Source: a bacterium (GTDB lineage: Bacteria; JAMCPX01). From it: a stretch of 38,704 nucleotides of DNA. The first letter of the stretch is position 1. Each line of letters starts with the position of its first letter. Positions 10,052 to 29,998 of this stretch are shown here, piece after piece. Made by a program: the position numbers and the translations under genes. The notes below the pieces were generated by a model that was given only the letters and a program-made list of their open reading frames with translations, had not been told where the DNA came from and searched no databases. The DNA is taken from contig JAJYLN010000022.1 of assembly GCA_021787665.1 (NCBI GenBank), forward strand, positions 1 through 38,704, written 5' to 3'.

Positions 10052-10215
10052 GTCGCGCCCCATGTGGGCGCGTGGATTGAAACATTCTCTCGCCTGAGGC
10101 ATACGGGTTGACGAACGTCGCGCCCCATGTGGGCGCGTGGATTGAAACTGGGCAAACTTACCATACAAGCTATTGAGTATCATGTCGCGCCCCATGTGGG
10201 CGCGTGGATTTAAAC
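10052..10215 (+). CRISPR. Type I-C CRISPR array, three repeats and two spacers
   Basis: A 32-base repeat starting GTCGCGCCCCATGTGGGCGC and ending GTGGATTGAAAC occurs at 10052-10083, 10117-10148 and 10184-10215. The spacers are 33 (10084-10116) and 35 bases (10149-10183). The third copy has one change (GGATTTAAAC for GGATTGAAAC), as is common for the leader-distal terminal repeat, so the leader side is at about 9972-10051 next to cas3. The repeat sequence is that of subtype I-C. With only a truncated cas3 nearby, the array cannot adapt or interfere by itself; an effector elsewhere in the genome would be needed. Confidence 0.95.
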
Positions 10216-10494
10216 TTTCCCTGTCCAGATACGTATGGTGCGTATGGTCCCGGCGTTACGAAAGACGGAAACGTATTCAAAATGTACTATACCGGCATCA
10301 GCGCCACGGGAGTACTGACGATCAACTATGCGACATCATTGGACGGAATTACCTGGGTGAAATCATACTCGAATCCGAGACTGAGTTATTTGAGCGGATC
10401 ACAGTCACCTGCGTTTCTCCCGGACAGCATGTTTCTGTACTTCTCGTATTTCAACGGCACGGACTGGCAGGTAGCCCTCGCTTCATACCCGTAA
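10216..10494 (+). pseudogene. Fragment of a beta-propeller (glycosyl-hydrolase-like) protein
   Basis: From the end of the array to TAA 10492-10494 a frame encodes about 92 residues with YGPGVTKDG, FKMYYTG and INYATSLDGITWVKS. These are blades typical of five-bladed propellers of GH43/GH32-type or related sugar-binding repeat proteins. There is no proper start: the frame enters from a GTG inside the last CRISPR repeat. It is therefore the 3' end of a gene truncated where the array ends. It is convergent with tonB. Function is lost or unknown. Confidence 0.6.
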
Positions 10495-15225: not shown

Positions 15226-16851
15226 GGGGTCAAGTCTTTACAGGCTGTTGAAAAACTCCTCTCAAAAAAGTATTTAATTTGCGATCTGATCATGGTAGAA
15301 CAAGAGTAATTCAATCGTAGGAGGCATGATGTTAGGAGAGAAGAAAAGGTCAGAGCCGATGTTCTACCACATCAACGTGGACGCATTAATTCCGGAGAAC
15401 CACCTTCTGAGACTTGTAACAAAGTACGTAGATTTCAGTTTCATCCGCGAGCAGGTGAAGCACCTGTATAGCCACACGGGAAGGCCTTCGGTAGATCCAG
15501 AGATCCTTCTGAAGATGCTTTTGGTCGGATACCTGTATGGGATCAATTCTGAGCGGAGATTATGCGAAGAAATCAACATGCACATAGGATACCGGTGGTT
15601 TGTAGGTCTCACGCTTGAAGATAAGATACCGGACCACTCGACGTTTTCGAAGAACCGGCACGAACGGTTTTCCGAGAGCGGGATATTTCAGGGATTATTC
15701 GACGAGATCGTAGGGCAGTGTATCAGGGCAGGACTGTTAACGGGGAGACACCTGACCGTGGACAGCACGAACATCAAGGCGAATGCATCGATCAAGAGCC
15801 TTGAACCCATCGTGGTGGAGATGAAGCCGCAGGAATATATAAAGAAGCTTGAGCAGGAGAATCCGGTAAAAGAAGAAAAGCCCTGGGAACCCGGGGAAGG
15901 ATATCCCCATCGTGGGGAGAAAATCAGCAACGAAACCCATCGATCACAAACAGATCCGGATGCCCGGCTCGCCCGGAAGTCATCCTTGGGGGCAACGGAA
16001 CTCAGCCATGCAGCAACGTATGTTATGGACAGCAAGAGCAGGATAATACTGGGGACGGATATCGGGAAGCCCGACAAGAATACGGACTGCAAGAATGCAC
16101 TGAAGCAGCTCCAGAGAATAAAGCAGAGCTACAACATAACGCCCCAGACACTCGGAGCGGACAAAGGATATTGTGCAGGAGAGTTTATCGATGCAGTGTT
16201 AAAGGAACGGATACAGCCGCATATACCGATTGTGGATAACCCGAGCCGCAACGAGAAAGGCATCTACCCCATAGAGCAGTTTACGTATGACAAACAGCGC
16301 AACCTATTTGTGAGTCCCGAAGGTAAGGAAATGAAGTATCATGGGATCCACAAACACAGCCGGCAGCATGTCTACCGGGCGAATGGGAAGGATTGCGGGG
16401 TATGTCCCAAGAAAACAGCATGTACAAGAGACCGGGCTCGGTCGGTCAGTTATCACCTGTATGAAGATGCTCTCCAGGCAGCAAGATGGTTGAACCGGAC
16501 AGCGGAATATCGGATATCCCAGCGGATGCGCAAACGGATCGAAGAATTATTCGGGGAGGCGAAAGAGTTTATGGGCCTGAGGAGAGCGAAGTTTCGAGGT
16601 GCTGCGTTTGTGCGGGAACAGGTAATGATGACGGCGACAGCACAAAACATCAAGAGGATGGTTAAAATGCTTGCCCGGCGAGTGCCACAAAAGAACGTAA
16701 CCGAGGCAAATAAGCCCCTTATTGCTCCTCCGTTAACCGGAATAAGGGAATTATTTTATCGGTTTTTCCGCAACGGCAACATACTGCTCTGCAATGAATA
16801 AAAATGCTCTAAAAAATGGAGTTTTTCAACAGCCTGTAAAGACTTGACCCC
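15226..16851 (+). mobile_element. IS1182-family insertion sequence
   Basis: A transposase gene is flanked by perfect 34-base terminal inverted repeats, 15226-15259 (GGGGTCAAGTCTTTACAGGC...) and 16818-16851. The inner 19 bases (CAGGCTGTTGAAAAACTCC) look like the usual end of this family. The outer 15 bases on each side (GGGGTCAAGTCTTTA and its complement) may instead be the two halves of a pre-existing palindrome. No target-site duplication is obvious with either boundary. The element looks intact. Confidence 0.85.
15326..16801 (+). CDS. IS1182-family transposase
   Basis: The 491-residue protein has the N-terminal DUF772-type helical domain (about 15-125: FYHINVDALIPENHLLR, GRPSVDPEILLKMLLVGYLYGI, DHSTFSKNR) and a DDE catalytic core. 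The core includes HLTVDSTNIKANAS (first Asp), LGADKGYC (second Asp), a CGVCPKKTACTR zinc-like segment and a C-terminal RKRIEELFGEAKEFMGLRRAKFRG motif with the catalytic Glu. A strong AGGAGG precedes two ATGs; the second (15329) has better spacing. The frame is uninterrupted, so the enzyme may be active. Confidence 0.92.
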   Translation: MMLGEKKRSEPMFYHINVDALIPENHLLRLVTKYVDFSFIREQVKHLYSHTGRPSVDPEILLKMLLVGYLYGINSERRLCEEINMHIGYRWFVGLTLEDKIPDHSTFSKNRHERFSESGIFQGLFDEIVGQCIRAGLLTGRHLTVDSTNIKANASIKSLEPIVVEMKPQEYIKKLEQENPVKEEKPWEPGEGYPHRGEKISNETHRSQTDPDARLARKSSLGATELSHAATYVMDSKSRIILGTDIGKPDKNTDCKNALKQLQRIKQSYNITPQTLGADKGYCAGEFIDAVLKERIQPHIPIVDNPSRNEKGIYPIEQFTYDKQRNLFVSPEGKEMKYHGIHKHSRQHVYRANGKDCGVCPKKTACTRDRARSVSYHLYEDALQAARWLNRTAEYRISQRMRKRIEELFGEAKEFMGLRRAKFRGAAFVREQVMMTATAQNIKRMVKMLARRVPQKNVTEANKPLIAPPLTGIRELFYRFFRNGNILLCNE

Positions 16852-25707: not shown

Positions 25708-25711
25708 GCCC

Positions 25712-25795
25712 AAAATCCCCCTTAGTCCCCCTTTTTCAAAGGGGGAAAAAACAGTTAGTAACTCCTCTTTGGAAAAGAGGGGTAGGGGAGATTTT
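25712..25795. repeat. Composite palindromic element between hisB and hisH
   Basis: Outer arms AAAATCCCC (25712-25720) and GGGGAGATTTT (25785-25795) enclose two hairpins, CCCCCTTT-TTC-AAAGGGGG (727-745 of 25 kb) and CCTCTTT-GGA-AAAGAGG (25764-25780). It fills nearly all of the only long gap in the his run and could fold in the mRNA without touching the hisH ribosome binding site. Relatives lie in hisF and at 29945-29998. Confidence 0.7.
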
Positions 25796-25813
25796 CCTAT
25801 ATAAGGAAGAGCG

Positions 25814-26435: not shown

Positions 26436-27158
26436 ATGAACGTACTACCTGCGGTGGACATAAAGTCCGGTAAATGCGTAAGGCTCTGGCAGGGCTCGTT
26501 CAACAGGGTGGACGTGTACGGGGACGACCCCGTGGAGATGGCGCTGCGATGGGAGAGGGAAGGCGCGGGCATGCTGCATGTCGTGGATCTCGATGCGGCC
26601 GTTTCCGGCAGGCCGATGAACAGGGACTCCATTACAGAGATATTGAAGCGTGTGCACGTCCCGGTGCAGGTCGGCGGAGGGGTGCGGGACAGGGGCATGG
26701 TGGAGTACTATATCGCGCATGGCGCCGGGTCCGTCGTTACGACGACACTTGCGTATGAGAACCCTGAAGAGGTGATCTGTATCGCACGGCAGTACCCCCG
26801 GAAGGTGTCCATAGGCGTGGACGTGCTGTCCGGGGCCGTGGCAATACGGGGATGGACGCAGACCGGGGGCATAGCTCCGTATGATTTCATCAAGAGGTTC
26901 AGCGGCGTGCCGATCTATGCATTTGTCCTGACGGACATCTATAAGGACGGGACGCTCGGCGGTATAGAACAAGGCAGGATAGAGAAGGCGCTCGAGGGCA
27001 TAGCGGAGCCCGTGATCGTATCGGGCGGTATAGCGAAGGTCGACGACATCGTGACCTTAAAGCAGATAAAGGGCAAGAACATCACCGGGGTCATCATCGG
27101 CCGGGCGCTCTATACGGGTGCGATAAAGCTCGAAGACGCGATAAGGGCGGCTGCGTGA
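26436..27158 (+). CDS. hisA: ProFAR isomerase
   Basis: The 240-residue (beta/alpha)8 barrel isomerises ProFAR to PRFAR. It has the catalytic pair Asp8 ([16 protein letters not shown]) and Asp129 (SIGVDVLSG), the phosphate-binding segments GGGVRD and [10 protein letters not shown], and the HVVDLDAA motif. The length is standard. Its stop overlaps the hisF start (TGATG). No anomaly is visible. Confidence 0.96.
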
Positions 27159-27949
27159 TGCTGACCAAGAGGATAATCCCCTGCCTCGATATAAAAGACG
27201 GCCGGGTGGTGAAGGGCATAAATTTCGTCGCGCTGAGGGACGCTGGAGACCCTGCCGACAATGCGCTGATATACGACAGGGAAGGCGCGGACGAGATCGT
27301 CTTTCTCGATATAACGGCATCGAGCGAGCAGCGCTCGCCCCTGATAGACGCCGTCGAGAGGACGGCGGACGCGGTCTTCATGCCGCTGACCGTGGGGGGC
27401 GGGATAAAGACGCTCGACGACATAAAGACACTGCTGCGTGCCGGCGCCGACAAGGTCTCGATAAACACGCAGGCCGTGCTCGAGCCGGATTTTGTAAAGA
27501 AGGCGTCTTACCGGTTCGGCGCCCAGTGTATCGTCGTGGCGATCGATGCAAAAAGAGTACCCCCCCATCTCCCCCTTACTAAGGGGGGAGACAGGGGGGC
27601 ATGGGAAGTCTACATATACGGCGGCAGGAAGCCCACGGGCATAGACGCCGTCGAATGGGCCATGAGGATGGAAGAGGCAGGGGCGGGCGAGATCCTGCTT
27701 ACCAGCATCGACAGGGACGGCACGAAGTCGGGCTACGACATAGAGCTTACCTCGGAGATAGCACGGAAGGTGGGCGTGCCCGTCATAGCGTCCGGCGGGG
27801 CCGGCACCATGGAGCATTTCTACGAGGGCTTCGTCCGGGGGGGCGCTGATGCGTGTCTTGCGGCGAGCCTCTTCCATTTCAGGGAGCTCTCGATAAAGGA
27901 GCTCAAGGCGTATTTAAGCAGCAAAGGCGTTGCGGTAAGGATGGTGTAA
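27158..27949 (+). CDS. hisF: Imidazole glycerol phosphate synthase, cyclase subunit, with an in-frame palindromic insertion
   Basis: ATG 27158 overlaps the hisA stop; GTG 27155 is one codon earlier. The 263-residue barrel has catalytic Asp11 (IPCLDIKDG) and Asp130 (VAIDAKR), phosphate-binding GGGIKTLDD and [11 protein letters not shown], and family segments throughout. It is about 10-12 residues longer than usual (about 251-253) because of a stretch of roughly residues 134-148, [15 protein letters not shown], coded by a CCCCC...GGGGG palindrome. The stretch lies in the loop after strand 5 beside Asp130. The frame is preserved, so the enzyme is probably functional. HisF pairs with HisH. Confidence 0.95.
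27557..27601 (+). repeat. Palindromic repeat inserted in frame in hisF
   Basis: The central hairpin is CCCCCTT-ACT-AAGGGGG (27571-27587), flanked by further C-runs (27560-27566) and G-runs (27594-27599). It resembles the hairpins between hisB and hisH and after the Fe-S gene. Its length, close to 45 bases, keeps the hisF frame. Confidence 0.8.
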
Positions 27950-29944: not shown

Positions 29945-29998
29945 GAAGCCCTCTTTCCCAAAGCGGGGACTCCTCCCTTTTGAAAAGGGAGGGATTTG
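29945..29998. repeat. Palindromic element after the Fe-S gene
   Basis: CCTCCCTTT-TGA-AAAGGGAGG (29972-29992) follows a CCCTCTTTCCCAAAGCGGGG stretch. It is related in style to the elements at 25712 and 27557. The stem could end transcription of the his run, though only a short T-rich stretch follows. Confidence 0.6.

Follow-up and report, generated by a model that had tools for sequence, protein, structure and literature searches.

Palindromic Repeats Within Bacterial Protein Genes

The closest described system is that of the Rickettsia palindromic elements (RPEs), which are found between genes and also in frame within unrelated conserved protein genes, where the inserts are thought to be neutral or mildly costly (Ogata et al., 2000, as reviewed in PMC2229807; PMC10969869). 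RPEs are 105–146 bp in length, and a guanylate kinase with an insert is translated and active (PMC2229807). In several species, GTAG/CGTC-tagged REPs form small single or paired palindromes, some of which lie inside known protein genes (PMC3733652), and bacterial MITEs such as ERIC/RU and Correia (PMC2229807) or the Coxiella QMITE (PMC5896051) can fuse in frame with genes. Palindromes that code for protein have so far mostly been regarded as a peculiarity of Rickettsia, apart from REP cases in other bacteria; both RPEs and REPs inside genes have already been published, and it is the element and its hosts that differ here. From sequence comparison, a dispersed REP/MITE-like palindrome has very probably entered a length-tolerant loop of the hisF gene of an uncultured bacterium in frame, and has been tolerated there as protein.

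Like the RPEs, this element is repeated between genes and in frame in unrelated protein genes, but with 48–50 bases (80–90 in a double form) it is set apart from them by their described length, and it resides in an uncultured bacterium, not in a Rickettsia; the nearest named record for this host carries the label Deltaproteobacteria. It works like an RPE without being classed as one, as it falls short of the described length. The single and double forms are shared with the GTAG/CGTC REPs; in contrast to these, the foot of the element bears no terminal tag, the hisF copy is untagged, and the printed copies end in AAATC/GATTT, with GTAG confined to the inner connector in certain copies of one family genome (G005). 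Furthermore, the Y1 transposase genes that were inspected have no copy in their vicinity, as none of the 27 Y1_Tnp (RAYT) loci of the family, with flanks limited to those loci, holds a match to the repeat model R1 (described below). As a non-autonomous repeat able to join genes in frame the element resembles MITEs, yet it is smaller than these (~100–200 bp, with terminal repeats), and no related insertion sequence was identified.

The hisF Gene and Its Insert

The window analyzed here, i.e., the whole stretch of 38,704 nucleotides of contig JAJYLN010000022.1, harbors a his operon on its plus strand in the order hisB, hisH, hisA, hisF and hisI/E, the names hisB, hisH and hisI/E having been assigned by reading the translations. 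The hisF gene (27158..27949, plus strand; Pfam His_biosynth, 280.7 bits) starts with the ATG at 27158, while the corresponding entry in the list of open reading frames (ORFs) opens at the in-frame GTG at 27155. It is present in a single copy, hisA being the sole other match in a search of the genome. The codon of Asp130, a residue whose catalytic role in HisF we take as established, was placed at 27545..27547 (plus strand) by alignment to HisF-LUCA and the family, and the invariant HisF columns, including Asp11 and Asp130, are kept. The dN of 0.069 and dS of 0.70 to a genome of the same genus, which matches contig JAMCVD010000072.1 of a metagenome assembly labelled Deltaproteobacteria, point to purifying selection on HisF. 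AlphaFold2 predicts an ordinary barrel with a mean pLDDT of 91.7 (63 for residues 141–150), which agrees with HisF-LUCA at TM scores of 0.90–0.94 and for which the Foldseek matches are HisF structures. Family match, active-site residues and predicted fold are hence all those that a functional HisF would have.

A 15-residue peptide (residues 134–148; 27557..27601, plus strand) is encoded in frame after VVAIDAKR, between Asp130 and the conserved WEV strand, by the palindromic DNA GTACCCCCCCATCTCCCCCTTACTAAGGGGGGAGACAGGGGGGCATGG, and a full-length R1 match (27554..27605) scores 38.2 and 33.5 bits on the two strands. Upon single-stranded folding, this C-run/G-run palindrome, which had been noted in the original prediction, forms a 6-bp outer and a 10-bp inner stem with 16 of 16 stem pairs intact, and its fold (z −2.64) was equalled by 1 of 200 shuffles and, in a repeat run, by 2 of 300.

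The insert had been described as about 15 residues in place of a short turn close to the active site. This is correct for the peptide itself, but the net gain of the loop is only 11 residues relative to HisF-LUCA, 9 relative to the shortest family member and 7 relative to the same-genus genome, i.e., less than the palindrome encodes, and homologous loops vary in length. Rather than sharing one length, the loops after Asp130 differ across the family, and in unrelated HisFs they range from a few to more than 25 residues. Because long loops without such palindromes exist at the same site elsewhere, loop length alone is not evidence of insertion. The insert does follow Asp130, but the risk implied by its proximity to the active site was overstated: the modelled peptide is a low-confidence turn between strands 126–134 and 150–154, from which we infer an exposed β-hairpin turn that joins the two strands after Asp130 and tolerates length change.

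A Dispersed Repeat Family

The covariance model R1 was built from 11 copies of the element, with the hisF copy left out. In its own genome, R1 has 51 strand-wise matches, corresponding to ~25 places, among which the hisF copy is the second-best site (E 6.7e-10); the palindrome is thus far from being the lone copy that would have spoken against a repeat. Both intergenic relatives that had been noted near hisF were confirmed. The first, in the gap between hisB and hisH (25711..25797), is a double hairpin with 31.7 bits in its first half, the DNA of which folds into two hairpins closed by an outer stem in a three-way junction (z −3.05), while the second, downstream of hisF (~29945..29995), is degenerate and matches in the core only (18.1 bits). 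The element occurs as a single hairpin of ~48–50 bases (e.g., AAATCCCCCCTACCCCCCTTTACTAAAGGGGGGAGAGGGGGGATT) and as a double hairpin of 80–90.

R1 matches are present in nine of nine family genomes, and a search with a strict core found 4–22 copies per genome in these nine, compared with 0–4 for a reversed control. At stricter settings, 24 of 117 genomes had matches, 16 of them outside the family; all these tallies were obtained by searching with patterns and models and from selected stretches, in genomes that are mostly metagenome assemblies. In several assemblies, contig breaks coincide with copies of the element. A looser pattern, CCCCT-N-AGGGG, was dropped as noisy (73 matches vs. 34 for the control). 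For the exact element sequences no match was found in the literature searched, which is weak evidence.

Copies in Frame Within Other Genes

We inspected 72 family sites. A qualifying ORF, defined as one of at least 130 aa with at least 20 aa beyond the site on both sides, was absent at 57 of them and present at 15, several of these being spurious. Since an open ORF was the search criterion, copies that keep the frame and are free of stops were selected by design. Recognized proteins with copies are, in G005, an ABC ATPase, LpxB, TruA and a BtuF-like binding protein (past its signal peptide), and, in G002, a GDPD; the search for the palindrome inside other ORFs, suggested originally, was therefore positive. 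For the ABC ATPase, copies are found in two species. The copy-bearing LpxB has ~57 residues where a solved structure has 4, and ~45 residues of the G005 protein are absent from LpxB of G006, G007, G008, G000 and G001, while LpxB of G002 and G003 have related or eroded loops. In G002, the LpxB and GDPD inserts share one composite repeat, in which AATCCCCGACCCAAGC...GCTTGGGTACCC precedes the palindrome, and both read it in the same frame. The TruA insert of G005 comprises 72 residues compared with 6 in E. coli TruA. Outside the family, near-perfect copies lie inside Sua5/TsaC and a GT2 glycosyltransferase of a genome listed only as of the same domain (G093), although TsaC is a softer case, its loop being only ~6–7 residues longer than in solved homologs, so that part of the loop may have been replaced by the element there. 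One copy is also found in an SBBP protein of another genome (G049).

Several loci were not counted as insertions. L154, L194, L323 and L327 lie near ORF starts and may reflect misassigned start sites, and sites such as L163, L166 and L170 lack the outer arms and were set aside as chance palindromes. Copies are also placed ahead of the prepilin cleavage motif in two pilin-like genes, L233 (G005) and L194 (G002), where they may be part of long leader peptides or may precede a start codon located further downstream.

Some of the affected sites show further repeats. The TruA insert of G005 (L266, G005:C55, 1070–2017, minus strand) contains two repeat types within its 72 residues, the second, beside the palindrome, being of the VIARSDDAGDTTKQS...IASPSARNDG type; the corresponding position in G000, G001 and G006 is occupied by ~33–37 residues that do not align to the G005 insert. 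In the ABC ATPase, the loop YARLY-KEKLELV (L287–L289) carries differing repeat-like insertions in G005, G002 and G008, suggesting an insertion hot spot.

Origin and Age of the hisF Copy

Fourfold-site identity of hisF is 0.62 to the same-genus genome and ~0.3–0.4 to other genera. Because its stems are intact despite the identity of 0.62, the hisF copy probably postdates the split from the same-genus genome, or was renewed; by our own estimate, the probability that eleven freely varying sites all remain unchanged at a dS/2 of ~0.35 in this lineage is near 0.02. In five other family members, the loop also has stretches rich in C and G, with PP or KGG-like remnants (MSPPPLSK, IPGPANGGKSGT, ISASTEGGKSVA, ISHPTPHKGEKGGR and VQDTPPLRERGQMGS), and resembles an eroded copy. 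Against R1, the loop of G005 scores 8.9 bits, which is at noise level, and those of the other relatives give no match. More than one insertion may have taken place at this site, which may alternatively have contained an older copy. A single insertion in the common ancestor of the family, since eroded to differing lengths and best preserved, or selected for pairing, in this hisF, would account for these remnants, the right halves of which align by eye, for the 7-bp outer arms kept in G005 and G004, and for similar remnants in LpxB of three species. Yet the similarity of the remnants is without statistical support, synonymous sites approach saturation between genera, and already at a dS of 0.70 to the same-genus genome an unselected ancestral palindrome should lose its pairing, which makes this history rather unlikely.

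The stable hairpin in the hisF coding strand, together with the similar element between hisB and hisH of the same operon, could be kept for a function in RNA or DNA, such as mRNA stability, pausing or processing, with the peptide as a by-product, but the loop in most relatives has no significant structure (that of G005 is weak, with 18 of 300 shuffles), copies occur in unrelated genes and an Rfam search of the window gave no match, so that we consider such a role improbable. Even less credence is given to ordinary variation in loop length, with the palindrome arising fortuitously from biased codons or slippage in C/G runs: the loop indeed differs widely among unrelated HisFs, but the match of the independently built repeat model to the hisF copy (E 6.7e-10) contradicts the strong form of this proposal. 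Bypassing elements are a known precedent for ribosomal skipping, and this precedent is all that speaks for removal of the insert after transcription or for its being skipped by ribosomes. All in-gene copies observed keep the frame and are free of stops, with the reservation that open ORFs were searched for, and this route is likewise highly improbable.

Probable Tolerance of the Insert as Protein

The entry of a dispersed palindrome that is tolerated as protein is the best reading because of the in-frame copies in LpxB, TruA, ABC ATPase, GDPD, TsaC and GT2. The original proposal of a mobile palindrome is supported as to tolerance by such copies in unrelated genes, while mobility itself is deduced from the dispersal of the element. 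A dispersed REP/MITE-like palindrome of ~48 bases would have inserted into hisF in a frame without stops, the ribosome would translate the insert, and the enzyme would work with the peptide present, which, being rich in Pro and Gly (PPxxPLxKGGxxG), would suit a loop. Full-length copies that were tested are open in 2–4 of six frames and encode PPxxPPFxKGGxGG-like peptides, hisF using such a frame. Tolerance would follow from this, as a palindrome that is open in at least two of six frames yields a Pro/Gly-rich loop peptide, and also from the site, which accepts length change in many HisFs.

More generally, we put forward tentatively, and as somewhat less probable than its opposite, that a class of short C-run/G-run palindromes repeatedly enters conserved enzymes across distant lineages, as several of its frames are free of stops and the peptide encoded is turn-forming and rich in Pro and Gly; it would then be a protein-compatible selfish repeat outside the Rickettsiales that had entered some sites, namely loops of HisF, ABC ATPase, LpxB and TruA, repeatedly. 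A palindrome of different appearance, which does likewise in uncultured bacteria, would be a more widespread counterpart of the Rickettsia case. For the affected enzymes HisF, LpxB, TruA and TsaC, solved homologs and simple complementation assays are available, and related species offer natural insertion experiments with empty, fresh and possibly eroded states of one site, by which the fate of selfish DNA turned into protein can be traced. Loop peptides like PPLLKGGxGG in proteins from metagenomes can derive from repeats, which is a warning for their interpretation.

Two further repeat-associated features were observed in the window. At 15226–16851 lies an apparently complete insertion sequence, the sole complete one in the window, with 34-bp perfect terminal inverted repeats around a 491-aa transposase-like ORF; the ends of this insertion sequence are unlike the palindrome. 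At 10052–10238, three copies of the 32-bp CRISPR-like repeat GTCGCGCCCCATGTGGGCGCGTGGATTGAAAC, with spacers of 33–35 bp and a mismatch in the last copy, look like a short or residual CRISPR-like array.
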